This document shows, one piece after another, positions 25,070-55,546 of a stretch of DNA of 62,633 bases. A model generated the notes under the pieces. That model saw only the letters and a list, made by a program, of their open reading frames with translations. It was not told the origin of the DNA and did no database searches. The translations under genes and the position numbers were made by a program. Where the stretch lies: NCBI GenBank assembly GCA_937912115.1, contig CALDOI010000195.1, positions 1-62,633 on the forward strand, read 5' to 3'. Every line of letters begins with the position of its first letter. Position 1 is the stretch's first letter. Origin of the DNA: an uncultured Bacteroidota bacterium (GTDB lineage: Bacteria; Bacteroidota; Bacteroidia; Bacteroidales; F082).

Positions 25070-26197
25070 ATGAATATTCGTAAAGCCATAATTTCTATAG
25101 CTGTTGTTGCTGTAGTGATATTTTTAGCGATGATGCTAAGTCAGTATTTCGTTGATAACAAAGTTATTCCCGAATCCAGAGAGAAAGAAGACGCAAAACT
25201 TTTTGTGAAAGCACTACCTGTAACCTATGCGATTAATTCTTCCGGTATATCTGCAACGGGCAGGTTATCATCACAACATGCCGTTGATTTAAGTGCCGAA
25301 GTTTCGGGTCAGATTCTTCAGGGCAATGTTAATTTAAAACAGGGAAAATCATTTAACGAAGGCGACCTGTTAGTTCGGATTTTTGACGAAGAGGCAAAAA
25401 ACAACCTGAAAGCAAGTAAGAGCCGTTTTTTAAACGGGATTGCCGGAATACTTCCTGACATGAAGATTGATTTTCCTTTAAGTTACCAAAAATGGCTTAA
25501 GTTCTTCAACGATATAAATATTGACAAATCTTTACCAGAACTTCCAGATATTGATAGTGATAAGGAGAAGGTGTTTTTAGCCAGCCGTAATATCCTTAAC
25601 GATTATTACACAATTCTGGGCTCTCAAATCCGGTTATCAAAATACAATATTTATGCCCCATTTAATGGTTCATTTACAAATGTAATGATGCAAGTTGGTT
25701 CAATTGCAAATCCCGGAAGCAAAATCGCCACTATGATAAAAACCGATCAACTTGAGCTGGAAGTCCCTATTAGGGTTGAAGATATTTATTGGGTTAATAT
25801 TGGAGACGATGTAACTGCTACAACAAAAGATGGCTTGTTAAGCTGGGCTGGAAAAGTTGTCCGCAAGTCTGATTATATTGATCCAAATTCACAATCAATA
25901 ACAGTATATGTAGGTCTTGAACCTACCAAATCAAAGCCACTATATCAGGGACAATATCTAAAAGCGGTTTTTTCAGAAAAGAATCTTGAAGGTAGTATGG
26001 AAATACCAAGAAATGCCATTTTCAACAAAAATATGGTTTATACTATTGAAGATGGTAAAATAAACATACACAAGGTTGATATTCTTAAAACCAATGGAAC
26101 AACTGTATTATTTTCCGGATTAGATGAAGGAACAATGGTAGTGGTTGAACCATTAATAAATGCTCACATAGGTACTAACGCCGAAATACTTAATTAA
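25070..26197 (+). CDS. RND efflux periplasmic adaptor (HlyD/MFP family)
   Basis: 375 residues with an N-terminal membrane anchor (about 7-27). The first lipoyl half reads SGISATGRLSSQHAVDLSAEVSGQI, the second ISAP-like half is YNIYAPFNGSFTNVMMQVGSIANPGSKI, and beta-barrel and membrane-proximal domains follow. The hairpin between the lipoyl halves is short. Such adaptors bridge an inner-membrane RND pump to TolC. The RND gene starts 2 bases after its stop codon and a TolC gene follows, giving a full tripartite operon. Confidence 0.88.
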   Translation: MNIRKAIISIAVVAVVIFLAMMLSQYFVDNKVIPESREKEDAKLFVKALPVTYAINSSGISATGRLSSQHAVDLSAEVSGQILQGNVNLKQGKSFNEGDLLVRIFDEEAKNNLKASKSRFLNGIAGILPDMKIDFPLSYQKWLKFFNDINIDKSLPELPDIDSDKEKVFLASRNILNDYYTILGSQIRLSKYNIYAPFNGSFTNVMMQVGSIANPGSKIATMIKTDQLELEVPIRVEDIYWVNIGDDVTATTKDGLLSWAGKVVRKSDYIDPNSQSITVYVGLEPTKSKPLYQGQYLKAVFSEKNLEGSMEIPRNAIFNKNMVYTIEDGKINIHKVDILKTNGTTVLFSGLDEGTMVVVEPLINAHIGTNAEILN

Positions 26198-26198
26198 A

Positions 26199-29100
26199 AT
26201 GAGAAAGTTGATTAGTACATTCGTAAAATATCCATTTTACGCTAATATTATAATCTTCATAATACTTATTGCCGGTACTTTAAGTGTACTCTCGATGAAG
26301 AAATCCTTTTTCCCCGAAATGGCATCAAAGGATGTTTTTGTTACCGTTTTCTATCCGGGGGCATCACCAAAGGAAATGGAAGAAGGTATTACACTCAGGG
26401 TTGAAGAGGCTATCAGGGGTATTGTGGGAATAAAAGAAGTTACTTCCACATCATCCGAAAATGTATCAAGTGTAAAAATTACAACCACTGGCGAATATGA
26501 TATTGATGAAACCCTGGCAGAAGTAAAGAATGCCGTTGATGGAATTACTTCTTTCCCAGTTGATGCAGAAAGGCCGATTGTTTTTAAACAACGATCGGCA
26601 ACCTTTGCCCTTTTCATGGGTTTATCAGGCGATGCTGATAAAATTACCCTTAAGGGATATGCCGATGAAATAGAGTACGACCTTTATAATTCGGGAATTA
26701 TGTCGCAAATTACCATTGGCGGTTACCCCGATTTGGAAATATCGGTTGAGATTTCGGAAGAAAACCTGTTGCGATATAATTTGACCTTCGATGAAGTATC
26801 AAGGGCCATTGCTCAAAACAACCTTGATATGTCAGGGGGTCAGATACGCTCAGATATTGAGGAGATTATGATCAGATCGAGATATCGTACTGTTGTACCC
26901 GAGGAAATTGAACAGATTATCATCCGTGCAAATCCCGATGGCAGCTTTTTACGGATTGCAGATGTGGGAACCGTGAAAAAACAATTTGCAGATGTAGCCA
27001 GCCAGTCGTTAATGAATGGTAAACCATCAATTTCTTTTAATATTAACAAGCTTCCCGAAGAAGATCTTACGGAAATATCAGCATTTTGCAAAACCCTTGT
27101 TAAAGAGTTCAACGAAACCCACACCGATGCACAATTATATGTAACATACGATTTCCTTCAAATGCTTAAGGGTAGGCTTAATCTACTTTATCGTAATGGA
27201 GGTATCGGACTTCTCCTTATACTGATAACCTTGGGTTTATTCTTAAGTCTCCGACTATCTTTTTGGGTTGCTTTTGGAATTCCGGCATCGTTTTTATCAA
27301 TGTTTATACTTGCGGCAGCCTATGGTATAACAATAAATATGATTTCCCTTTTCGGGATGATATTGGTAATAGGTATACTGGTGGATGATGGAATTGTAAT
27401 CGCCGAAAATGTTTACACAAAGTTTGAAAAAGGGATGTCTCCCAAAAAGGCAGCTGTTGAAGGGACAATGGAGGTGCTTCCTGCTGTAATGACCTCTGTT
27501 ACAACAACAATCATTGCTTTTTCACCATTATTCTTTATCGAAGGACGAATGGAATTTATGTTCGAAATGGCATTTGTTGTGGTATTTAGCCTTGCGTTCT
27601 CTTTACTGGAAGCATTTTTTGTATTGCCAGCCCATCTTGGCAGCTCATTTATTCTGCGCAAAAGTCAAAAACAAAATACAGGCAAAAAGATACGCGATTT
27701 ATTGGAGAAGCTATTAACTTTCATGCGTGAGAAATTATACGGAAGTACCCTAAATTTTGTAATAAGGTGGAAGTATATCTTTATATTCACTCCATTGATA
27801 ATGATAATATTAACCGTTGGCCTATTTGGCGGAGGGTTGATTAAAGCTACATTTTTCCCTTCAATTCCTTTCGATCAGTTCACTGCTGAAATAGCATTTA
27901 AACCCGGATCGGGAGAAGCTCAAACCCTTGAATACGTTAAAAAAATTGATGATGCAATTTGGGAAGTTAACAGAGAGCTAATGGATGAGCTTAATGATAC
28001 TGCTAATTTTGTAAATTTCACCTTTGTTTCAACAGGTTCTGCATTTAACGGTCAGGAAGTTGGTTCACATGCCGGTAATGTGTTTGTACTGCTTCGCGAT
28101 CTTGAAGACTCAGGTACATCAAGTTTTGAGATAGTTACCAGAGTTCAAAATAAACTGGGGCCAATCCCGGAAGCCGAGAAAGTTAAGATTGCAGGTAGAA
28201 ACACATTTGGTACTCCTGTTTCAATTAGCCTTTTGGGTAAGGATATGGACGAGCTAAATGCGGCAAAAGATTATCTGTTAAGGGGCATGAAACAAATTAA
28301 GGCTCTCAATAATGTTACTGATGTTAATCCTGCGGGTAAACGTGAAATTCAATTAACACTTAAACCCAAGGCTTACTTTTTAGGATTTAGTCAGGCTAGT
28401 CTTACAAATCAGGTCCGTCAGGGTTTCTTTGGTGGACAAGCTCAGCGGTTACAGCAGGGAAAAGATGAGTTGCGGGTCTGGGTCAGGTACCCAAAAACTG
28501 ACAGAATAAACATTGGTCAGCTTGAAAACATGAAGATTAAAACAATGGCTGGTGAATACCCTCTTAGCGAATTAGCCGAATATACTATCGATCGTGGGCC
28601 AGTTAGCATTAAACATTTTAACAGTGCCAGGGAAGTAAGGGTAGATGCTGATTTGTTAAATCCATATGACGCTGTTCCTCCAATCATTGAAAAAATAAGA
28701 ACAGATATACTGCCGGTAATAGAAGAAACTTATCCGGGAGTAACAGTTGAGTATCAGGGTCAACAAAGAGACTCTAACGAGACCATGGAACAAATTATGA
28801 AGTATTTCAGTATTGCATTTGCTTTGATGTTTTTGGTTATTGTAATTCACTTTAAATCTTTTACACAAGGAGTTATTATTGTAGCAATGATTCCACTGGC
28901 ATGGCTTGGTGCCACCTGGGGGCATGGAATAGAGGGTATCCCTGTTTCAATGTTAAGCACTTGGGGCATGATAGCGCTTTCGGGTGTGATTATTAACGAT
29001 GCTGTCGTCTTCCTTTCCAAATACAACTCACTATTAGTTGAAGGTGTTAAGGTGCAAGATGCTGTTGTACAGGCAGGTAAAGCTCGTTTCAGGGCGATTG

Positions 29101-29432
29101 TTCTTACCACAATAACCACAACTGTTGGACTTTACCCAATTATACTGGAAAAAAGTTTTCAGGCTCAATTTTTAATCCCGTTGGCTGTTTCATTGGCATA
29201 TGGTGTGTTAATTGGAACAGGGTTTATTCTAATATTTTTCCCTGTTTTAATACTAATTCTTAACGATTTTAAAAGAGCCTGGAAATGGACTTTTAGGAAT
29301 ATTAATTTATGGATTAAACTTGGTGATAGAAATTCAACTTTAACCGAGGAACAAATAGCTGCAATTAGAAAGTATCCTGAACCGGAAGAAGTGGAAAAAG
29401 CAATTATTTTTCACCATAGAACGCTTGATTAG
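26199..29432 (+). CDS. RND family efflux pump, inner-membrane permease
   Basis: 1077 residues with the AcrB-type plan: one N-terminal helix, a large periplasmic loop, helices 2-6, an internal repeat (helix 7, second loop, helices 8-12). Helix 4 shows GILVDDGIVIAENVY with the paired proton-relay aspartates. Helix 10-11 carries LSGVIINDAVVFLSKYN. It is a proton-driven exporter acting with the flanking adaptor and TolC. The substrate cannot be told from sequence. A C-terminal tail of about 60 cytoplasmic residues is longer than in AcrB. Confidence 0.9.
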   Translation: MRKLISTFVKYPFYANIIIFIILIAGTLSVLSMKKSFFPEMASKDVFVTVFYPGASPKEMEEGITLRVEEAIRGIVGIKEVTSTSSENVSSVKITTTGEYDIDETLAEVKNAVDGITSFPVDAERPIVFKQRSATFALFMGLSGDADKITLKGYADEIEYDLYNSGIMSQITIGGYPDLEISVEISEENLLRYNLTFDEVSRAIAQNNLDMSGGQIRSDIEEIMIRSRYRTVVPEEIEQIIIRANPDGSFLRIADVGTVKKQFADVASQSLMNGKPSISFNINKLPEEDLTEISAFCKTLVKEFNETHTDAQLYVTYDFLQMLKGRLNLLYRNGGIGLLLILITLGLFLSLRLSFWVAFGIPASFLSMFILAAAYGITINMISLFGMILVIGILVDDGIVIAENVYTKFEKGMSPKKAAVEGTMEVLPAVMTSVTTTIIAFSPLFFIEGRMEFMFEMAFVVVFSLAFSLLEAFFVLPAHLGSSFILRKSQKQNTGKKIRDLLEKLLTFMREKLYGSTLNFVIRWKYIFIFTPLIMIILTVGLFGGGLIKATFFPSIPFDQFTAEIAFKPGSGEAQTLEYVKKIDDAIWEVNRELMDELNDTANFVNFTFVSTGSAFNGQEVGSHAGNVFVLLRDLEDSGTSSFEIVTRVQNKLGPIPEAEKVKIAGRNTFGTPVSISLLGKDMDELNAAKDYLLRGMKQIKALNNVTDVNPAGKREIQLTLKPKAYFLGFSQASLTNQVRQGFFGGQAQRLQQGKDELRVWVRYPKTDRINIGQLENMKIKTMAGEYPLSELAEYTIDRGPVSIKHFNSAREVRVDADLLNPYDAVPPIIEKIRTDILPVIEETYPGVTVEYQGQQRDSNETMEQIMKYFSIAFALMFLVIVIHFKSFTQGVIIVAMIPLAWLGATWGHGIEGIPVSMLSTWGMIALSGVIINDAVVFLSKYNSLLVEGVKVQDAVVQAGKARFRAIVLTTITTTVGLYPIILEKSFQAQFLIPLAVSLAYGVLIGTGFILIFFPVLILILNDFKRAWKWTFRNINLWIKLGDRNSTLTEEQIAAIRKYPEPEEVEKAIIFHHRTLD

Positions 29433-29447
29433 AGATTTGAAAAAGAA

Positions 29448-30782
29448 ATGATAATGAAAAATTCAAATAGTTATATAATGATTGTTTTGATTTTCCTTTC
29501 CGGGATTCTTACAGTCAACAACGCCAAAGCTCAACAGGAACTTTCCTTGGAAACAGCCATTCTTAAAGGGCTGGAAAACAATTTTCAGGTAAGGATTTTC
29601 GGGGAGTATTATAAATCAGCACAGCTAAACAATAGCTGGGGAACGGTTGGCCGTTATCCTTCAATAACTCTTGGGGTTAACAGCATCAACAGGTTCGATA
29701 ATACCCCATCAACACAAAATCCCGACAACCGAAGTGAGTTATACACCAACCGGTTATCACCTTACGTAAATGTAAATTGGATTCTGTTTAATGGATTTTC
29801 GGTAAAGATGGGTAAAGAAAAACTTGACCTGTTGGAAAATTACTCGGCAGGGAATTCAGCCCTGGTAGTTGAGAATACGGTTCAATCAATTATCCTTGGT
29901 TATTATCTGGCACTACTTGAACAGGAAAGGTTAAAGGTATTAAAAGAAGTAAAAGACCTCTCAGGCGACCGTTATGAATATGAGATGATACGCAAAGACA
30001 TTGGTAGTGCGGTTACCTTTGAAGTGTTGCAGGCAAAGAATTCGTTTTTAAGCGATTCGACAAATTACCTGCTTCAAAAGCTAAATGTCAGGAATGCGTT
30101 TCTTAGGTTAAATTTATTGTTGGGGGAGCCACCGGAAGTTAGTTTTGTGCTTGTTGACAGTTTTCAAACAGAGACGTATACGTATGATTTGAAAGATTTG
30201 GAACAAAAGATGATGTCGAGCAATAAAACTTTGCAAAATCAATACGTTAATCAAGAGATTCTTAAAAAGGGCACAGGCATTGCGAAGAGTGCCAGCTACC
30301 CATCTTTGATGCTAAATGCAGGAACAGATTATAATAAAGGGTATTACGATCTACCCAAGGATAATAATTACGACAGTCATTCATTTGACTATTACGCAAA
30401 TTTCACACTTAGTTTTAACCTTTTTAATGGAGGGAACACGCGCAGTGCCATCCAGCAGGCAGGTATTAGTGAGCATATAGGTTTGTTGGAAACTCTTGAG
30501 ATTAAACAAACTTTGGCCAACTTGTTGGTTAATCAATATGAACTTTACGATATTCGAAAGCAATTACTAAATGTTGCCAATTCAAATATGGAGAGTGCCG
30601 AGTTAAATATGCAGATTGCAACCGATAAATACCGCAATGGTACAATCAACTCATTTAACTTCCGTGATGTGCAGTTGATATACTTAAATGCCGCCCACCG
30701 CAAGCTAAATGCAATTTATGATATTATTGATACGCATACTGAGTTGTTGAGATTAACCGGGGGGATTGTTACGGAGAATTAG
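29448..30782 (+). CDS. TolC family outer-membrane efflux protein
   Basis: 444 residues with a signal peptide (about 1-29, ending NNAKAQ). There are two repeats of coiled-coil and beta-strand hairpin regions, for example LSLETAILKGLENNFQVRI at the N-terminus and LSFNLFNGGNTRSAIQQAG in the second half. It forms the outer-membrane exit duct for the adaptor and pump encoded directly upstream. It ends 78 bases before the convergent histidine kinase gene, with no obvious terminator between. Confidence 0.88.
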   Translation: MIMKNSNSYIMIVLIFLSGILTVNNAKAQQELSLETAILKGLENNFQVRIFGEYYKSAQLNNSWGTVGRYPSITLGVNSINRFDNTPSTQNPDNRSELYTNRLSPYVNVNWILFNGFSVKMGKEKLDLLENYSAGNSALVVENTVQSIILGYYLALLEQERLKVLKEVKDLSGDRYEYEMIRKDIGSAVTFEVLQAKNSFLSDSTNYLLQKLNVRNAFLRLNLLLGEPPEVSFVLVDSFQTETYTYDLKDLEQKMMSSNKTLQNQYVNQEILKKGTGIAKSASYPSLMLNAGTDYNKGYYDLPKDNNYDSHSFDYYANFTLSFNLFNGGNTRSAIQQAGISEHIGLLETLEIKQTLANLLVNQYELYDIRKQLLNVANSNMESAELNMQIATDKYRNGTINSFNFRDVQLIYLNAAHRKLNAIYDIIDTHTELLRLTGGIVTEN

Positions 30783-39322: not shown

Positions 39323-40207
39323 ATGAAAATATCTATACAAAACCTAAACAAAGTATATGATAATGGAAAACAAGCCTTAAGCGATGTTAATTTGGAAATT
39401 GAAAGTGGCATGTTCGGTTTGTTGGGGCCAAATGGAGCAGGGAAATCAACATTAATGCGAATACTGGTTACTCTCATGAAACCTACAAATGGCAATGTGC
39501 TAATTGATGGGTTAGACATCAGTAAAAACCGAAAGGAAATTAGAGATATCCTGGGATACCTACCTCAGGATTTTAGGTTTTTTACAAAACTTAAAACATG
39601 GGAGTTTTTAGATTATGCTGCACGGCTTTCCGGAATAAAAAACAAAAAAGAGAGATTACAAAAAGTTGATATGTGGCTCGAAAAAGTAGGCCTTTTCGAC
39701 GCTCGTGAACGTAATGCCGACAAGCTATCAGGCGGAATGAAACGCCGGCTGGGCATTGCCCAGGCACTAATTGGCGATCCAAAACTACTCGTGGTTGATG
39801 AGCCAACAACAGGCCTGGATCCCGAAGAACGAATTAGATTCCGAAACATCCTTTCTGATATTAGTCGTCATGATGCAATTATAATATTATCCACACATAT
39901 TGTTGGTGATATTTCGAGTATTTGTCAAAGTATGACATTGCTCGATGATGGTTTTTTAAGTTTTAGTGGTTCACCCGAAGAGCTTATTGAAAAATCGAGA
40001 GGCCATGTTTGGCAAATCAACACATCAGGAACTGATTACGATATATTAAAAAATACATATCCCGTTATATCTACAATACCTACTGACGATGGCTGGGATG
40101 TGCAGTTTGTAGCCGACAGTATTAGCAACTCAAATGCAATACAAATTGAACCAACTCTTGAGCATGCATATGTTTATTTTATGGAGTATATGAGTAACAA
40201 AAACTAG
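39323..40207 (+). CDS. ABC transporter ATP-binding protein (stand-alone)
   Basis: 294 residues. Walker A GPNGAGKST (K41), Q-loop GYLPQDF, signature LSGGMKRR, Walker B LLVVDEPTTGLDP and the switch histidine in LSTHIVGD are all intact. The tail of about 80 residues beyond the NBD is variable. It is the ATPase for the permease encoded 55 bases downstream. It closely resembles the ATPase domain fused to the RND pump at 49961-54676, sharing GMFGLLGPNGAGKSTLMRI and ERIRFRN, so the two are paralogues. It opens the composite ABC/RND locus. Confidence 0.93.
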   Translation: MKISIQNLNKVYDNGKQALSDVNLEIESGMFGLLGPNGAGKSTLMRILVTLMKPTNGNVLIDGLDISKNRKEIRDILGYLPQDFRFFTKLKTWEFLDYAARLSGIKNKKERLQKVDMWLEKVGLFDARERNADKLSGGMKRRLGIAQALIGDPKLLVVDEPTTGLDPEERIRFRNILSDISRHDAIIILSTHIVGDISSICQSMTLLDDGFLSFSGSPEELIEKSRGHVWQINTSGTDYDILKNTYPVISTIPTDDGWDVQFVADSISNSNAIQIEPTLEHAYVYFMEYMSNKN

Positions 40208-40262
40208 ATTGAGAATGAATCTGTGGCTATTAAATAATCAAATGACTAATAATATTTAATAA

Positions 40263-43200
40263 ATGATCTCTATTCATAAAATACTAACAATTGGTCTTTA
40301 CGAGATGCGTACATTGTTGCGTAGTTGGTTTTTTAGAATTTTTGCCGGACTATCAGTACTCTTTATCGGTATTTTCAATATTGCCGCAAATATTACCAAT
40401 AGCGGTGCCCCATTTATATATCGCGCCTTACCTGCATCGCTGCCTTATACCAACCTGCTAATTCTAAACTTAGGACAGGCGATAGTTGCCGTTTTTCTTG
40501 CCTCGGAATTTTTAAAACAGGACAAAAAAAATGATACTGTGGAGGTTATTTATGCCAGGTCGATGACCAATGCAGAATATATTCTAGGTAAAGCGTTTGG
40601 AATACTATCTGTGTTTTTCATTCTAAACATTATCATTCTTGTAATGGGAATAGGTTTTTCATTCTTAAGTGGTGATGCAACACAGGGAGTACTTGAGTAT
40701 TTTTACTACCCATTACTTATAAGTTTACCAACGCTGATTTATATACTCGGTTTATCATTTTTCATAATGATAATGACCAAAAATCAGGCAATTACATTTA
40801 TTCTACTCTTGGGGTATATAGCAGTATCCATCTTTTATCTTGACAAGAAATTCTATCAGGTATTTGACTTTATCGCATATCAGGTACCGATGATGAATTC
40901 TACCATTGGTGGTTTTGGAGATTTTAATGAAATACTAATTCACAGAGGTATATATTTATTTATCGGACTTGCTTTAATCTTTTTTACAATAACTCGTCTC
41001 GATAGATTACCACAATCCCGAAGATTCAAGTATTTGCCAATTTTGCTTTCCACAATCTTTTTGGTTGCCGGGGTCTATACAGCCTACTTGTATGTGAATA
41101 ATAAAAAAGATATTATCAGTTTCAAAAAAGAGCTAATTAGTTTAAATAACCAGTATTTAAATTATCCAAGAGCAACTGTAGATTCCTGTAACATTGATTT
41201 GACACACAAGAATGATATAATTGAAGCAGAAGCCACTTTAGTAATATCAAATAATAATTTGGAAATTCTTGACACTGTTATACTAAGTCTTAATCCATCG
41301 TTGGATATTGTTGAATCAAAAATTAACAACAGCATTGTTTCAATAATACGGGAGAAGCAAATAATAAAAATAATTATCCCGGGAGGCTTGTTACCATCAA
41401 AAACCACATGTCTAACTTTAAAGTATCAGGGTACAATTAACGAGAACACCTGCTTTTTGGATCAGAATCTAGAAGAATATAAGGACAATTTTTCATTTGA
41501 GATTTTCAGAATTAAAAAGCGTTACTCATACCTCAACGATAAATTTGTTCTGCTAACTCGCGATGCTCTTTGGTATCCCATTTCAGGTGTTGGGTTTTCA
41601 TCCATAAGCCCGGCAAGTTATTCACCCGATTTTACAAATTACTCACTTAATGTAACCACCCATCCTGATCTACAGGCAATATCACAGGGAACAATGAGTA
41701 ATCCTGATGCTGGTGTTTTTGAGTTTAATACCGATGTTCCACTACCACAAATTAGCTTGCTGATAGGTAATTATATAAACTACAGTATTAATGTTGATTC
41801 CATTGATTATAGCATATATACATTACAGGGTAATGATTATTATTTGGAGTATTTTACAGATATAACAGACAGTCTTCCGGGCGTTATTCGTGAACTAAAA
41901 AACGAATATGAAACTCAAATTGGATTTCAATATCCATTTAAACGTTTTTCTCTGGCAGAGGTTCCCATTCAATTTGACTTAAGTAAACATATTTGGTCGT
42001 TAACAAGCGATGCTGTACAGCCCGAACTCACCTTTTACACAGAAAAAGGCGTTGTGCTTGAAGAAACTGATTTTAAAAAGAGGAAAAAGAGAACCGAAAG
42101 GAACATGAACAGGAATAAAGAGGAGGTAAGTCCTACCGAATTACAATCCCGTATTTTCAAGCGATTTACCCGGGGCAACTTTATGGCAAATCATACTGAA
42201 AGGTATATGTTTAGGGATAAAATGGACCGTAATACTCTTTCTCTGTTTCCAAACTACTATACATTTGTTACTTCTCTTGATTCCAAAAAATGGCCTGCCC
42301 TTAATTTATCACTACAAGCATATTTAAAAGACAGGTATTCAAATCCTATTTCATCATATCGCTGGTTTTTTACCGATCTCAGCAAAAGCGAACGTATAAA
42401 TCTTGAATTAAAAGAATCATCGTTAGCAAACTATTCAAAGCTAACCAATACCGATGAAAATGATGATGACGTAGTTACGCTTTATGATTTGATAATTGCA
42501 AAAGGCGATTATTTGTTTTCTGTTTTCAGGGCTCGTTATGGTGATGTAGATTTTAATTCGTTTCTTGACGAATTTATCGCTAACCACAAACATGAAAATT
42601 TCACCCTTGAAATCTTCGATTCAGCCATGCAAAGCAAATTTGGTGAATCTGTAATTGATGAGGTTAATAATTGGTACTATGGTCAGGAGCTACCGGGTTT
42701 CTTATTAAAAGATTTGGAAACATATAAGGTTAGAGTTGACGAATACACAAAATATCAAATCAAGTTTAAGATTACTAATCCCGAAAAGGCCGATGGAATA
42801 GTAACCATCAATATTGATTTATTCGACCCTAATAGTCAGCAAAACAATAGTGATGATCCGCCAGATTTTTCAAAGAAAATATATCTGCCCGCAGGCACAG
42901 CCAAGGAAATTGGATTTGTTTTTGCCACCGAACCGGTGAGGATGAATTTATTCACACATATCTCTCTCAATATGCCAAACAACCTAATCTACGATTTTGG
43001 AGGATTTAGTGAGACCAGGAAAGCTGATGTTTTTGATGGTATACAGGATTGTGAAGTGTTTGACAATGTTTTGGTTGATGGCGAATTAATTGTTGACAAT
43101 GAGGATAGTTTATTCAGCTATTATCACGATAGTAAAGTAAGTTATTTGAAAAGCCTTGTAGATGCCAACAAAGATCCGGGTTACGAATATTCAGGTATTA

Positions 43201-43601
43201 GATTCTGGAACCCTCCTGCCGACTGGCGCAAAGTATTACGATCGGGTTTTTACGGTAAATATGTGCGGTCGGCTGTTTACACACGAAGTGGTCACGACGA
43301 AAGAACTGCAACATGGAATGCACCAATCGATCACAATGCATATTATGATGTTTATTGTCATGTTGAAAAAATAAATATTAATACTCGCAGGAATAGAGAT
43401 AATAAAAAGGCTGACTATAATTTCAGTGTTTATCATGAAGGAGGAGTAGAAAATATCAACCTTACAGATGGTGATATGGAAAATGGATGGAATTATCTTG
43501 GCACATATTTTATAACTCCCGAAACAGGAAAGGTTGAATTAAGTAATAAATCAGTTGGATCAATGGTTTTTGCTGATGCAATTAAATGGGTAGAAAATTA
43601 A
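40263..43601 (+). CDS. Giant ABC-2 permease with degenerate M1-peptidase-like region and golvesin-like C-terminus
   Basis: 1112 residues. The N-terminal about 280 residues hold six or seven helices like an ABC-2 permease (TLLRSWFFRIFAGLSVLFIG, ASEFLKQDKKNDTVEVIYARSMTNAEYILGK). The region from about 290 to 850 resembles the M1 aminopeptidase fold of known permease/M1 fusions (YPFKRFSLAEVPIQF), but no HExxH zinc motif is present. The last about 135 residues (RSGFYGKYVRSAVYTRSGHDERTATWNAP ... GSMVFADAIKWVEN) match golvesin/xanthan-lyase C-terminal-like carbohydrate-binding domains. It is the likely partner of the ATPase upstream. I infer an exporter with an extracytoplasmic binding module; the substrate is unknown. 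Confidence 0.75.
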   Translation: MISIHKILTIGLYEMRTLLRSWFFRIFAGLSVLFIGIFNIAANITNSGAPFIYRALPASLPYTNLLILNLGQAIVAVFLASEFLKQDKKNDTVEVIYARSMTNAEYILGKAFGILSVFFILNIIILVMGIGFSFLSGDATQGVLEYFYYPLLISLPTLIYILGLSFFIMIMTKNQAITFILLLGYIAVSIFYLDKKFYQVFDFIAYQVPMMNSTIGGFGDFNEILIHRGIYLFIGLALIFFTITRLDRLPQSRRFKYLPILLSTIFLVAGVYTAYLYVNNKKDIISFKKELISLNNQYLNYPRATVDSCNIDLTHKNDIIEAEATLVISNNNLEILDTVILSLNPSLDIVESKINNSIVSIIREKQIIKIIIPGGLLPSKTTCLTLKYQGTINENTCFLDQNLEEYKDNFSFEIFRIKKRYSYLNDKFVLLTRDALWYPISGVGFSSISPASYSPDFTNYSLNVTTHPDLQAISQGTMSNPDAGVFEFNTDVPLPQISLLIGNYINYSINVDSIDYSIYTLQGNDYYLEYFTDITDSLPGVIRELKNEYETQIGFQYPFKRFSLAEVPIQFDLSKHIWSLTSDAVQPELTFYTEKGVVLEETDFKKRKKRTERNMNRNKEEVSPTELQSRIFKRFTRGNFMANHTERYMFRDKMDRNTLSLFPNYYTFVTSLDSKKWPALNLSLQAYLKDRYSNPISSYRWFFTDLSKSERINLELKESSLANYSKLTNTDENDDDVVTLYDLIIAKGDYLFSVFRARYGDVDFNSFLDEFIANHKHENFTLEIFDSAMQSKFGESVIDEVNNWYYGQELPGFLLKDLETYKVRVDEYTKYQIKFKITNPEKADGIVTINIDLFDPNSQQNNSDDPPDFSKKIYLPAGTAKEIGFVFATEPVRMNLFTHISLNMPNNLIYDFGGFSETRKADVFDGIQDCEVFDNVLVDGELIVDNEDSLFSYYHDSKVSYLKSLVDANKDPGYEYSGIRFWNPPADWRKVLRSGFYGKYVRSAVYTRSGHDERTATWNAPIDHNAYYDVYCHVEKININTRRNRDNKKADYNFSVYHEGGVENINLTDGDMENGWNYLGTYFITPETGKVELSNKSVGSMVFADAIKWVEN

Positions 43602-49960: not shown

Positions 49961-52900
49961 ATGAATTTTATCATTAAAAGAAAAGTTCTGATAACCATGC
50001 TGTTCACGGCACTTACTATGCTGGGGTGGTTTTCATATAAGCAGCTTTCCGTTGAGTTATATCCAAATGCTCAAATCCCATTTCTATTTGTAAATGTGGG
50101 AAGCGCACTTGAGGTTGACCCTGAATACATGGAAAAACAAGCTATTATTCCGATTGAAGGAGCAGTGGGAACCTTGGCTGGGGTTGATAAAATTGAATCC
50201 ACAGCAGGACAGCAACAGGGTACTATCAGAGTATCGTATGATAAGTCAACAAACATAAAACTTGCTTATTTAAAACTCATTGAAAAAATTGACGAAATAA
50301 GAGGAACCCTGCCTGAAGAATTTATGGTGCAGGTTTTTAAGTTCGATCTGGAGCAGTTAAATAATATGTTCATGACAATCCAGGCACGAGGTGGTGGAGG
50401 TGTTGACAGAGTAAGGCATGTTGTTGAACAAGAAATTGTAAATAAATTTAAAAATATAAATGGTATCTCAAATGCCGAAATATTTGGCGGCAGGGAAAAA
50501 TCTGTTGATATAATACTTAAAGAAGATGTTTGTAAGGGCTATAACATCACTCCTGCCGATGTACGATCAGCGATAAATTCAAATAGCCTTGCCCGTACAT
50601 ATGTTGGTAAGGTAACCGAAAACAATCAGCTACATTCGGTAAATGTTGTATGTGAATTTGTAAATGTTAACGATCTGTATGAGGTGGTCATTATCGAATC
50701 GGGAGATGTTAAGCTTAAGGATATTGCCACAATCAATTTTGGCTTAAAGGAGCAAGACTCATACAGCCGTGTAAACGGAAAAGAGGCCGTCACCATTCAA
50801 CTAACCCGTGATTCGCAAGCCAACATTATTGAACTCGCCGAAACAACAGAAAAGCTTATTGCTTCTCTCAACGAAGAATTTAGCCGTAAGGATATTCAGC
50901 TTGTTATTCAAAACAACTCTGCCGAAATAATGGAAAAGAATATCGACCTTATTATCGAGCTTGCGATGATTGGCGGGATACTGGCAATATTCATCCTTTG
51001 GGTATTTCTCAGGAATTTAAAACTCGTTATTGCTGTTGCCCTTGCAATACCAATCTCTGTTTATACTGCCTTCAACTTTTTCTATGCCTACGACATTACA
51101 ATTAACAGTCTAACCCTCCTGGGAATGGCACTGGCAATTGGAATGTTACTTGATAATAGTGTTGTGGTACTCGAAAATATTTATCGACTCGCTGCAAAAA
51201 AAATAAGCCCTGCCATAGCAGTCGTTCAGGGAACCAAAGAGGTGTCGCGTTCCATAATTGCAGCAACATTAACTACTGTTACAGTATTCCTTCCTTTTTT
51301 GTTTTCATCAAACTTTTTTATCGGACTACTTGGTAAGCATATCGGAGTATCAATAATATCAACATTAATAGTTTCCCTAGCTGTTGCTTTGTTGTTTATT
51401 CCAATGATAACCTACGTTTTCCTTACCTGGAAAAAAAGTTCAAATGAAATCATTTTCGAACGAATTTCGCACCACAACAGATTAATTCAAATATATCTGG
51501 TGTTCCTTAAAACCAGTATGCGAAATCCTGGCAAAGTAATTATGGGAGCTTTGGGTGTGTTTTTTATTACCCTGTTAATAAGTCTTGGGATTAGTACGTT
51601 TTCCACTGAAGAACCCGAAATTAAGGACCTAAACTTATATGTGACAATGCCCGGAGGTACAACTTTGGAAAATACCGATTTGCTTATTGCAGAAGTTGAA
51701 AAGAAATTAGACAGCCTTCAGGAAAAGAAAGATGTGCTGAGTCAAATATACGAAGAGGAGGCTGTGCTTACAATAACATTATCTGATGAATATCGGGATA
51801 TAAGAAATATGAGTATTCCCAACATTAAAAATGATATTATCGAATCACTTCAGGATTTTAAACAAGCAGAATTTACATGGGATCCATCGGCAACGGGTAA
51901 CAGATTTGGAAACGGTGGTTTTGATGATGTTGATGGCATGGCTCGAATACTTGGAATAGGAACCCAACAGGAAAAAATCCTGATTAAGGGACAGGATTTC
52001 GCTCAAATGCAAAACAAAGCACAAGATATTGAATATTACTTAAATCAGATTTCATCAATAAAAAGAATCAATATCAAAGTGCCCGAAAAGCGCCCCGAAG
52101 TTCAATTACTTTTCGATAAACAATTAATGTCGTTATATGACATTCCGGTTACTTCAGTACTTTCGGAACTCAACTCATTCCAGCCAAGTTTTTCAAGTGG
52201 AGTATTGCTAAAACAAGGTAACGAAGAATACGATATTCAGATAAAAATGCCCGAATTGGATGAAACCGTTACCGATCGAAATATCCACGACCTTAAAACT
52301 CTAAATGTAAGAGGTAGTACCGGATCAACATTTGAACTCCAGAATATTAGTGATTTTAATTTCACAACCGGGTTATCAACCATCAAAAGGAAAAATCAGG
52401 AAAAACAAATAGAAATATCCTATGAATTTTTAGATGAGGTAAAGGATGAAAACGATCTTCTAACTGCTGCCAGAGCAGAAGTAGATGATCTGATTTCAAC
52501 TATAAGTCTTAGCTCGGATATGGTAATTGAGGTAATACATGAAGACGATGAACTTGGTGAATTTGGTTTTTTATTATTGATGGCAGTGATGCTAATATAT
52601 ATGATCCTTGCTTCAGTATTTGAGTCCTTCACCATGCCTGTCGTAATGATGTTTTCAATTCCTCTTGCTGCAATTGGCTCGCTCATTTTGCTAATCCTTA
52701 CAGGCACTTCCATAATGAATGCAAACGTATTTACGGGATTCCTTATTTTGCTTGGTATAGTTGTGAATAATGGAATTATTATGATCGATTATACGCGTGT
52801 GCTTCAAAAGCGTGGTTATCGCGAAACCCGGGCATTGATGACAGCCGGCCTTGCCAGAGTGCGACCAATATTAATTACAGCAATTACCACCATTATAGCT

Positions 52901-54676
52901 TTAATTCCTCTGGCCTTAGGTAAAGCAGAGTATGTTACACAAATTGGTGTTCCTTTTGCAATAACAGTTATTGGTGGTTTGGCTTTAAGCACGTTGCTAA
53001 CACTTGTGTTTATTCCTACTTTTTATTCAGGTTTACAATCTGCGTTAAGCTGGATAAAAGAGCAGCCTGTTTTTATCAAAGCGATTCAAATTATACTATG
53101 GGTAGTTGGAACCTATTATATTTATACTGAAGTAGACAGCAAAGTTTGGATGTTGATATACTTCATTGTTCTGATAATATCTGTACCAACAGCAATATAT
53201 TTTATAAAAACAAGCCTCCGAAAAGCTTCTGAAAAGCTTATTGATGATGATAAACCTATACTAATAGAAATACGAAATGTCGTTAAAATTTACGATTGGG
53301 ATAATCGTTTTTCACGTGAGTGGAAATCAGGGTTAAATATCCGCAAACGACTTGGTATTCACGATACATCTTCCAAATCAAGTATACTTGCAGGTTTGAT
53401 ATGGCAGCTCCCGGTTATTGCCTTTTCGTACTACTTGATATATTTCCATATCGAAAGTGGCTTTTGGTATTTTATATTGCAGATGGTGTTTTATGTACTG
53501 GTTATTGGAATGCTTTCTTCATTAAAAACACATCTCACATCAAGCAAAAGAAATAAGATTGTCCGGCTATTCAGCAGGGTGATTTTTGGTTCATTCTATT
53601 GGTTATATCCGGGAATTGCCATGTACAGTTTTTACAGTATCTATTCACTGCCGGGTCTTGTTATTCCTGTAGGAATTATATGGTATTTAGCATCAGCGAT
53701 TAAGGTAACCGCCGACAATCTCCACAACAACAAAGTTGATGTTAACAGAGTAAAGGGATGGTTTAAAGGAATACGAAAAATGTTCTATCGGTTTGTATTG
53801 GTTATTCCTGTTCTTGGTAAGAAAAAGAAACCATTTAAAGCTGTAACCGGCGTAAAATTCGATATTGAAAACGGCATGTTCGGATTATTGGGGCCAAATG
53901 GTGCCGGTAAGTCAACGCTTATGCGCATAATTTGTGGAATACTTGAGCCCAGCTACGGACAAATTACCATTAACGACATTGATCTTAAAGAAAATCGTGA
54001 AGAACTTCAGGGACTAATAGGTTATCTACCACAGGAATTTGGTATGTATGAAAATATGACGGCATGGGATTTTCTTAACTATATTGGGGTTCTAAAAAAG
54101 TTATACGACAAAAAAACCAGAGAAAGCCGGGTAGAATATGTATTGAAGGCTGTCCATATGTATGATAACAGAAATGGAAAAATTGGATCCTTTTCGGGAG
54201 GAATGAAACAGCGAATTGGTATAGCACAAATACTATTGCATCTGCCTCGCATACTTGTTGTTGACGAACCTACAGCTGGTTTAGACCCCAGGGAACGCAT
54301 AAGATTCCGCAACTTATTGGTTGAATTAAGCAAAGATCGTATTGTCATTTTCTCAACTCATATTATTGAAGATGTTGCCAGCTCATGCAACAGAGTAGCT
54401 GTTATGAAAAAAGGCGGTGTTGTTTATCTTGGCAAACCAATTGAAATGGCTGATATTGCAAAGGGTAAAATATGGACGATGAACCTACCTGTTTCTGAAT
54501 TTGAGAGTATTAAAGATGATCTCACAATTATTCATCATATGCGTGAAAATGAAATAATCAGGGTTAGATGCTTATCAGATTCAGCCCCAACTGAAAATGC
54601 TCAATCGGTTAAAGCTAATCTGGAAGATGCATATTTGTATTTGTTGAAAAGAGATATCGGATTGAATAGATTATAG
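49961..54676 (+). CDS. RND efflux pump fused to an ABC ATPase domain
   Basis: 1571 residues in one uninterrupted frame. Residues 1 to about 1030 are a complete RND permease (helix 4 AIGMLLDNSVVVLENIYR; helix 10-11 GIVVNNGIIMIDYTR). Two extra helices follow (about 1045-1090), then an ABC-like first strand ILIEIRNVVKIYDWDN (about 1100-1115), a membrane insert with about four helices (about 1130-1260), and a full NBD: Walker A GPNGAGKS with K1317, Q-loop GYLPQEF, signature FSGGMKQR at 1411, Walker B ILVVDEP at 1431 and switch histidine FSTHIIED. All ATPase motifs are intact. A six-helix ABC-2-like protein is encoded next. Proton-driven and ATP-driven parts in one chain are unusual. Confidence 0.9.
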   Translation: MNFIIKRKVLITMLFTALTMLGWFSYKQLSVELYPNAQIPFLFVNVGSALEVDPEYMEKQAIIPIEGAVGTLAGVDKIESTAGQQQGTIRVSYDKSTNIKLAYLKLIEKIDEIRGTLPEEFMVQVFKFDLEQLNNMFMTIQARGGGGVDRVRHVVEQEIVNKFKNINGISNAEIFGGREKSVDIILKEDVCKGYNITPADVRSAINSNSLARTYVGKVTENNQLHSVNVVCEFVNVNDLYEVVIIESGDVKLKDIATINFGLKEQDSYSRVNGKEAVTIQLTRDSQANIIELAETTEKLIASLNEEFSRKDIQLVIQNNSAEIMEKNIDLIIELAMIGGILAIFILWVFLRNLKLVIAVALAIPISVYTAFNFFYAYDITINSLTLLGMALAIGMLLDNSVVVLENIYRLAAKKISPAIAVVQGTKEVSRSIIAATLTTVTVFLPFLFSSNFFIGLLGKHIGVSIISTLIVSLAVALLFIPMITYVFLTWKKSSNEIIFERISHHNRLIQIYLVFLKTSMRNPGKVIMGALGVFFITLLISLGISTFSTEEPEIKDLNLYVTMPGGTTLENTDLLIAEVEKKLDSLQEKKDVLSQIYEEEAVLTITLSDEYRDIRNMSIPNIKNDIIESLQDFKQAEFTWDPSATGNRFGNGGFDDVDGMARILGIGTQQEKILIKGQDFAQMQNKAQDIEYYLNQISSIKRINIKVPEKRPEVQLLFDKQLMSLYDIPVTSVLSELNSFQPSFSSGVLLKQGNEEYDIQIKMPELDETVTDRNIHDLKTLNVRGSTGSTFELQNISDFNFTTGLSTIKRKNQEKQIEISYEFLDEVKDENDLLTAARAEVDDLISTISLSSDMVIEVIHEDDELGEFGFLLLMAVMLIYMILASVFESFTMPVVMMFSIPLAAIGSLILLILTGTSIMNANVFTGFLILLGIVVNNGIIMIDYTRVLQKRGYRETRALMTAGLARVRPILITAITTIIALIPLALGKAEYVTQIGVPFAITVIGGLALSTLLTLVFIPTFYSGLQSALSWIKEQPVFIKAIQIILWVVGTYYIYTEVDSKVWMLIYFIVLIISVPTAIYFIKTSLRKASEKLIDDDKPILIEIRNVVKIYDWDNRFSREWKSGLNIRKRLGIHDTSSKSSILAGLIWQLPVIAFSYYLIYFHIESGFWYFILQMVFYVLVIGMLSSLKTHLTSSKRNKIVRLFSRVIFGSFYWLYPGIAMYSFYSIYSLPGLVIPVGIIWYLASAIKVTADNLHNNKVDVNRVKGWFKGIRKMFYRFVLVIPVLGKKKKPFKAVTGVKFDIENGMFGLLGPNGAGKSTLMRIICGILEPSYGQITINDIDLKENREELQGLIGYLPQEFGMYENMTAWDFLNYIGVLKKLYDKKTRESRVEYVLKAVHMYDNRNGKIGSFSGGMKQRIGIAQILLHLPRILVVDEPTAGLDPRERIRFRNLLVELSKDRIVIFSTHIIEDVASSCNRVAVMKKGGVVYLGKPIEMADIAKGKIWTMNLPVSEFESIKDDLTIIHHMRENEIIRVRCLSDSAPTENAQSVKANLEDAYLYLLKRDIGLNRL

Positions 54677-54844: not shown

Positions 54845-55546
54845 ATGAAGAACAAAATACATCTTGTAATAAGCATGATAAACTACAATTTGAAAATTAT
54901 TTTTGCAAATAAGTTTATTTATTTCATGATTGCAGCCGTGGCATTCTATTTCCTTGTGATTGGAATTATGCTTTTTTCCGACCAACCACCACTTGAAGAA
55001 TATATCTACAATTCACTTATTTTTCCCGGATTATTAATAATCTTCTATCCCGTCCTATTCAATATCCAAAACGATAAGGATGCCCGAATGCTTGAAATTG
55101 TTTTTAGTATTCCCAACTACCGTTACAAAATATATTTGGTGCGATTTGTTATAAGCCTGCTCCTATTGACTGTTGTTATATTTCTTATGACTCTCTTTTC
55201 GGTGTTTGCAATTATTCAGGTTCCGGTATTTTACATGGTTTATCAGGTAATGTACCCTCTTGTTTTTCTTGCTTGCCTTTCCTTTTTATTTACCACGCTG
55301 GTAAAAAATGCTAGTGGAGCTGCAGTTATAATGGTTATTATCGGATTGTTTTTTTGGATTCTGGCTGAACCCCTTTCTCACAGCAAGTGGAATATTTTTT
55401 TAAATCCATTAAATATTCCTTCCGATATTAGCTATTCCATTTGGATAAACATCGTATTTCAAAATCGTCTTATGCTTGTTGTTGGCTCAGTAATATCAAT
55501 ACTTTGGGCCTTGATAAACCTCCAGAAACGGGAAAAATTCGTTTAA
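54845..55546 (+). CDS. ABC-2-like permease, six helices
   Basis: 233 residues, almost entirely hydrophobic, with about six helices and no other domain. The N-terminus INYNLKIIFANKFIYFMIAAVAFY and the loop NIQNDKDARMLEIVFSIPNYRYKIYLVRFVIS are of the ABC-2/ABC exporter permease type (compare DTVEVIYARSMTNAEYILGK in the giant permease). No dedicated ATPase gene lies beside it, so the most obvious partner is the ATPase domain fused to the RND pump encoded 168 bases upstream. Confidence 0.75.
   Translation: MKNKIHLVISMINYNLKIIFANKFIYFMIAAVAFYFLVIGIMLFSDQPPLEEYIYNSLIFPGLLIIFYPVLFNIQNDKDARMLEIVFSIPNYRYKIYLVRFVISLLLLTVVIFLMTLFSVFAIIQVPVFYMVYQVMYPLVFLACLSFLFTTLVKNASGAAVIMVIIGLFFWILAEPLSHSKWNIFLNPLNIPSDISYSIWINIVFQNRLMLVVGSVISILWALINLQKREKFV

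Follow-up and report, generated by a model that had tools for sequence, protein, structure and literature searches.

The window, meaning the whole 62,633-nucleotide stretch of DNA from an uncultured Bacteroidota bacterium that was analyzed here, contains a module of seven genes. Their order is ABC ATPase, large permease, outer membrane channel, adaptor, RND permease (RND1), RND-ABC fusion and small permease (Table 1). By convention, RND pumps and ABC exporters form two classes, each with its own source of energy, whereas the sixth gene of this module encodes an RND permease and an ABC ATPase in one chain. Its frame starts with ATG and has 1571 codons and zero internal stops. The Pfam model ACR_tran matches the protein full-length (505.8 bits, residues 2-1023) and ABC_tran matches residues 1297-1439 (104.2 bits), both far above cut-off. 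The nucleotide-binding domain (NBD) contains the Walker A lysine K1317, the Q-loop residue Q1358, the signature FSGGM at 1411-1415, Walker B at 1431-1436 and the switch histidine H1467. A preliminary description of this DNA had reported one continuous frame with a whole RND permease and an ABC domain. The open reading frame and the Pfam matches confirm this, and the residue numbers that it gave for K1317, the signature (1411) and Walker B (1431) hold, as does the presence of the switch histidine.

Table 1. Genes of the seven-gene module and parts of the fusion protein, with their positions in the window
Feature	Coordinates	Strand	Basis
Gene 1: stand-alone ABC ATPase, 294 aa	39323..40207	+	ABC_tran 113.3 bits
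Gene 2: ABC-2-type permease with degenerate M1-peptidase-like part and Golvesin_C, 1112 aa	40263..43601	+	Golvesin_C 43.2 bits
Gene 3: TolC-like outer membrane channel, 496 aa	43619..45109	+	OEP 140.7 bits
Gene 4: RND periplasmic adaptor (MFP), 353 aa	45109..46170	+	TIGR01730 RND_mfp 172.4 bits, cut-off 94.9
Gene 5: unfused RND permease (RND1), 1029 aa	46302..49391	+	ACR_tran 692.8 bits
Gene 6: RND-ABC fusion, 1571 aa	49961..54676	+	Single ORF, Pfam, motifs
Fusion: RND permease part, residues 1-1025	49961..53035	+	ACR_tran 2-1023; D398 and N936 each in 68/68
Fusion: linker with two further predicted membrane helices, residues 1026-1095	53036..53245	+	Alignment-averaged hydropathy
Fusion: first strand and A-loop of ABC domain (IEIRNVVKIYD), within residues 1096-1116	53246..53308	+	Motif scan; Y1111 and K1109 in 68/68
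Fusion: membrane insert within ABC domain, two predicted helix pairs with K/R-rich flanks, residues 1117-1290	53309..53830	+	Hydropathy, K+R counts
Fusion: remaining ABC ATPase domain with all catalytic motifs, residues 1291-1571	53831..54673	+	ABC_tran 1297-1439; motifs in 68/68
Gene 7: small ABC-2-like permease, about six predicted helices, 233 aa	54845..55546	+	ABC2_membrane_3 21.5 bits, cut-off 31.6; hydropathy

No NCBIfam model reached its cut-off among the best 25 matches, either for the window copy of the fusion or for the copy in Bacteroides faecis, which means that routine annotation may hide the RND-ABC architecture. The best RND subfamily model was RND_permease_2 (439 bits, with a cut-off of 1250), and no model in Pfam or NCBIfam spans the whole joined protein.

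A search of 84,980 species genomes yielded 282 stretches that code for relatives of the fusion, and the best 80 of these 282 loci were analyzed. Complete single frames of 1544-1605 aa are found in 68 of the 80 loci, one of which (L103) includes a stretch of unknown bases. Walker A, the Q-loop, the signature, Walker B with its glutamate and the switch histidine are kept in all 68. The other 12 loci are incomplete – ten are cut only by contig ends, one (L100) enters unknown bases, and one (L114:6808-10921) encodes the fusion in two overlapping frames that break near residue 790-805, within the RND part, on a contig that also ends inside the ABC part. The break in L114 is probably a local sequence error or decay. 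None of these 12 loci has a break where the RND part meets the ABC part.

The region around the junction (residues about 1004-1300) gave matches in 10 of 41 genomes, these being the genome of the window and 40 relatives. One match (L018, a 250-aa frame, E 7.9e-4) was set aside as weak and probably due to chance. The nine convincing matches fall within open frames of 844-1591 aa, and the two smallest of these frames are on contigs of 3473 and 5973 bases. The 41-genome set is not independent of the collection of 84,980, as several loci come from genomes common to both. In a phylum-wide set of 395 genomes, the junction region was found in six, including the genome of the window, and each time the frame that holds it is 1561-1640 aa long. 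The identical six were recovered with a profile of greater diversity. No split-gene ancestor was found among the best 80 of the 282 loci or in the six of 395 phylum genomes with the fusion. A stop between residues 1030 and 1300, or homologues that are always two separate genes, had been named in the preliminary description as signs against a fusion; neither was seen, and the relatives have single frames.

Named carriers include Marinifilum, with M. flexuosum DSM 21950 (L070) as one marine example, Labilibaculum, Ancylomarina, Perlabentimonas and Mangrovibacterium, and also Bacteroides faecis, B. faecichinchillae, B. bouchesdurhonensis and Parabacteroides. Several carriers are records without a metagenome-assembled label. 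The fusion is also present in two metagenome-assembled genomes labelled KSB1 and in one labelled Krumholzibacteriota. Among the best 5000 plasmid records, none covers 80% of the fusion.

Compared with its 97%-identical relative L043, the fusion has a dN/dS of 0.03 in the RND part, 0.16 in residues 1026-1095, 0.05 in residues 1096-1116 (21 codons only), 0.04 in the insert and 0.05 in the NBD. These values rest on this one pair, as dS was saturated or high in the other four pairs. An assembly or frameshift artefact that joined two genes has in its favor that the window belongs to a draft genome of 321 contigs. Such an artefact is very unlikely indeed, since intact single chains of like architecture are found in 68 of 80 relatives, some of them without a metagenome-assembled label; the absence of any break at the junction in the 12 incomplete loci and the purifying selection across it argue against it as well. 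The genome comparisons confirm the RND-ABC fusion as a real protein-coding architecture, conserved across Bacteroidota, with its predicted catalytic residues kept.

The ABC domain of the fusion appears to be split by an insert that holds four predicted membrane helices, as suggested by a motif scan and by residue conservation. In the ordinary ABC ATPase at 39323, the first strand and A-loop (ISIQNLNKVYD) run almost directly into the second strand. In the fusion, the motif IEIRNVVKIYD is at about 1102-1112 and the second strand (FKAVTGVKFDI) begins near 1292, with the A-loop motif about 170 residues ahead of the remaining domain. A motif model was made from 14 ABC N-termini, 13 of them from other ATPases of the same genome and one from the ATPase at 39323, and was scanned over 78 of the 80 loci, as two start too near the ABC core. 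Its best hit fell at this site in 77 of the 78 members (median score 13.9, versus 2.05 for the runner-up), and 1 in 1560 shuffled regions reached the median of 13.9. The sole exception (L111) still has VKIYD. V1108, K1109, I1110 and Y1111 are invariant in the 68 complete fusions. When profiles of the fused NBD and the stand-alone ATPase were compared, 277 columns aligned through to the C-terminus (E 1.1e-85) and the first strand was left unaligned, as expected if the insert is present.

Hydropathy was averaged over a C-terminal alignment of 36 sequences, the window and 35 loci (55 of the 80 loci passed a start-motif filter, and 36 remained after removal at 85% identity, with L043 omitted). The peaks are modest and the method is crude. 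Two helices are predicted at about 1040-1080, followed by a K/R-rich stretch that holds the A-loop, then two helix pairs at about 1147-1248 with short outer loops poor in K/R, and then another K/R-rich stretch ahead of the NBD. As the extra predicted helices are even in number and follow a positive-inside pattern, the NBD is predicted to be cytoplasmic. The insert is the least conserved part of the protein, with a mean identity of about 0.41 compared to 0.72 for the NBD (corrected scale, 54 loci). It has no match in the PDB better than E 0.13, and its sole Pfam match is below cut-off. The regulatory insertion of CFTR NBD1 is also between the first two NBD strands, but is short and soluble, while the insert of the fusion has about 170 residues and four predicted membrane helices. 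An ABC ATPase domain may thus, to judge by the fusion, be able to accommodate a membrane domain beside its A-loop.

The neighbors of the fusion are conserved along with it. By tblastn among the best 80 of the 282 loci, the small permease is found 3' of the fusion in 73 of the 74 loci with room for it, RND1 upstream in 64 of 65, the TolC-like channel upstream in 61 of 62, and the adaptor upstream in 61 of 63. The adaptor of L114 is present, and fell outside the counted distance because of the broken fusion frame. Tallied by blastp, the numbers are 70 of 74 for the small permease, 64 of 65 for RND1, 60 of 62 for the adaptor and 60 of 61 for the channel; the large permease (PermM1) was found in 53 of 61, as a C-terminal stub at the locus edge. 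One locus, L099, has the fusion without any partner gene in 17.9 kb and is the sole exception on all four counts; it could be an orphan fusion or a mis-assembly. The full seven-gene order is present in 10 of the 10 relatives with long enough contigs, and three further fusion loci are too near a contig end. Across the phylum, searches for the insert, for the small permease and for the large permease at full length all led to one set of 6 genomes out of 395 (with at most 7, 7 and 2 candidates scored per genome, respectively), and 54 further genomes of the 395 had only partial matches to the large permease, of at most 48.5 bits. The module appears, from these patterns of gene content, to be inherited as a unit.

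The large permease has matches to Peptidase_M1 (21.9 bits) and ABC2_membrane_2 (14.4 bits), both below the Pfam cut-offs. It was rejected as an active M1 peptidase, as no HEXXH motif is present in the window copy or in any of the ten homologues longer than 900 aa. Homology between its N-terminus and the small permease was not supported. A profile comparison of the two was not significant (probability 0.7%, E 0.079). The small-permease alignment comprised the window copy and 34 of 70 small permeases. No solved structure was a convincing match to the small permease; the best (E 0.053) was an unrelated soluble protein.

Between RND1 and the fusion, the window also has a gene with an ORF6N domain (phage anti-repressor-like, 49400-49936, +). 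Among the best 80 of the 282 loci, only the 97%-identical L043 has a match to it at that site, as a shortened remnant, and the gene therefore looks like a late insertion. A second adaptor-RND-channel set is found by ORF order elsewhere in the window (25070-30782, +), and its RND permease, at 26199, shares 22% identity with the fusion. Bacteroides faecis has a further adaptor-RND-channel set, which is found downstream of the module, past one opposite-strand gene (L107:14811-20470).

A tree was built from 14 NBDs of fusions, 7 operon ATPases and 13 of 14 ABC stretches taken from the genome of the window. In it the fused NBDs form one clade (100/99), and together with the operon ATPases form a joint clade (99/97) apart from the 13 other ABC ATPases of that genome. 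This grouping suggests that a duplication took place inside the operon and that fusion happened once. The RND parts of the fusions are likewise one clade (100/100), with a weak grouping with RND1 (85/75), which shares 27% identity with the RND part of the fusion. Both trees have long branches and call for caution. Pairwise distances of the RND part and the NBD part are correlated at 0.95 in the 54 of 80 loci with all parts complete, and none of 999 permutations was as high. The correlation is consistent with joint inheritance of the two parts, and is not specific to them, as the RND part correlates with RND1, the adaptor and the channel at 0.95-0.98 as well.

The RND part resembles the HAE-1 RND permeases (AcrB, MdtB, CmeB) in its full-length ACR_tran match and in an operon with an RND adaptor and a TolC-like channel. 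Unlike them, it is followed by 2 + 4 extra predicted membrane helices and a C-terminal ABC ATPase. The nearest solved chains to it are MdtB (E 1.8e-63) and CmeB (E 1e-59). The canonical RND proton relay consists of two aspartates in TM4 and a lysine in TM10, and the fusion departs from it. D398 in TM4 and R968 are invariant in the 68 complete fusions, but the second TM4 aspartate is replaced by asparagine in 67 and by serine in one, and all 68 have an asparagine (N936) at the position of the MdtB TM10 lysine (positions were mapped on MdtB). In RND1, D414 is present in 64 of 64 sequences and N931 in 61 of 64, and position 932 is Asp in 37, Asn in 26 and Tyr in 1. Proton coupling by a non-canonical relay is plausible for both RND proteins, judging by these residues.

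The NBD of the fusion resembles a different group of proteins. It matches the ABCA exporter ABCA4 at E 8.5e-48 and the NCBIfam models of the GldA and DrrA ATPases below cut-off, and the adjacent permeases may be of the ABC-2 or type V kind, with Pfam matches below cut-offs. It differs from the ABC-2, type V and ABCA proteins in its attachment to an RND pump and in the membrane insert that appears to part its first strand from the second. Like MacB, it is an ABC ATPase encoded with an adaptor and a TolC-like channel. The NBD of MacB is fused to its own ABC permease, according to PMC8277102, while the fused NBD described here is attached to an RND permease and the fusion has no MacB- or FtsX-like permease domain by Pfam. 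The same paper describes MdtBC, in which two different RND subunits form one trimer. The module is like MdtBC in encoding two different RND permeases and one adaptor in an operon, and unlike it in that an ABC ATPase is fused to one of these permeases.

The reading that we favor, and to which we give nearly an even chance, is that an ABC exporter is yoked to a tripartite RND pump by one polypeptide, which would be the hinge of a seven-part envelope exporter. The RND half would join RND1, perhaps in a mixed trimer of the MdtBC kind, and the two would form a proton-driven conduit with the adaptor and the TolC-like channel. The fused ATPase would pair with its sister ATPase at 39323, and the two would drive two ABC-2-like permeases, the N-terminus of the protein at 40263 and the small permease at 54845. 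The insert would anchor and orient the ATPase beneath the RND trimer. The ABC part would move the substrate out of the cytoplasm or the inner leaflet, and the yoked RND pump would pick it up on the periplasmic side and expel it by way of the adaptor and channel that they share, with two energy sources acting in series on one substrate route. That the small permease has no ATPase of its own and adjoins the fusion in 73 of 74 loci makes it the simplest reading that the fused ATPase drives it. That the large permease was found at full length, among the 395 genomes, only where the fusion occurs argues for one machine. The adjacency and the shared presence in the identical six of 395 genomes give genomic support to one proposal of the preliminary description, that the ATPase drives the permease at 54845 while tied to the RND pump. 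Its reading stood in part – the fusion was borne out and this proposal gained support, while the insert, the partners at 39323-43601 and the named species had been missed. The substrate could be lipid-like or amphiphilic, which is a guess, no more, prompted by the ABCA lipid exporters being the nearest solved relatives of the NBD.

The same adjacency and shared distribution of the fusion and the small permease would also fit a homodimer. In that arrangement two fusion chains and one RND1 would form the trimer, the two fused NBDs would pair with each other and drive two copies of the small permease, and the genes at 39323 and 40263 would encode a separate exporter that feeds the same channel. 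The ATPase at 39323 adjoins the large permease, so each ATPase-permease pair could be self-sufficient, and the catalytic residues are invariant in the 8 aligned operon ATPases as in the 68 fused NBDs. The finding of the full-length large permease only in the six of 395 genomes with the fusion argues for one machine instead, and we consider the homodimer unlikely, if still a serious candidate.

Two other readings give the fused ATPase a task other than driving the small permease. If the ATPase gated or drove the conformational cycle of the RND protein, the fusion would be a truly dual-energised pump. The covalent fusion in all 68 complete members, with the ATPase residues intact, and the altered proton relay (TM10 Lys to Asn in 68 of 68, second TM4 Asp lost) are compatible with this. 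The invariance of D398 and R968 suggests that proton coupling may be retained, RND1 has the same TM4 pattern and a similar TM10 pattern without any ABC domain, and the small permease would be left without an obvious motor, all of which make such a pump improbable. The preliminary description had raised direct double energising of the RND protein itself; beyond the covalent link, no specific support for it was found. The ATPase could also be a switch for assembly or opening, acting by mechanotransmission as has been proposed for MacB or FtsEX, and not a transport motor. ABC ATPases in tripartite systems can power periplasmic work, and the module has a shared adaptor and channel, but a switch does not account for the ABC-2-like permease without its own ATPase beside the fusion in 73 of 74 loci, and is no less improbable.

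On the boldest reading, the fusion would belong to a new, dual-energised class of exporter in which ATP and the proton gradient act on one substrate route through one covalent protein, with an ABC fold around a membrane insert tied to an RND trimer. We hold this class to be a real possibility, somewhat short of an even chance. No description of an RND-ABC fusion was found among the titles and abstract openings listed from the literature searched, which covered open-licence papers and a few subscription papers, with no bioRxiv. The parts are each of a known kind; what is undescribed, to our knowledge, is their union, the insert and the seven-gene module that recurs. The fusion has the look of a genuine kind of exporter, possibly run on two energy sources. 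It offers a direct system in which to ask whether proton and ATP energy couple in one export route, and raises the question of which substrate needs both energies; carriers include records of Bacteroides, Parabacteroides, Marinifilum and Labilibaculum. One lead is in Bacteroides uniformis, where PMC12694919 describes an ABC-type pump operon induced by dicumarol, BACUNI_01926-01932. Its tags span seven numbers, and we note it, as a lead only, as a candidate for the seven-gene module.
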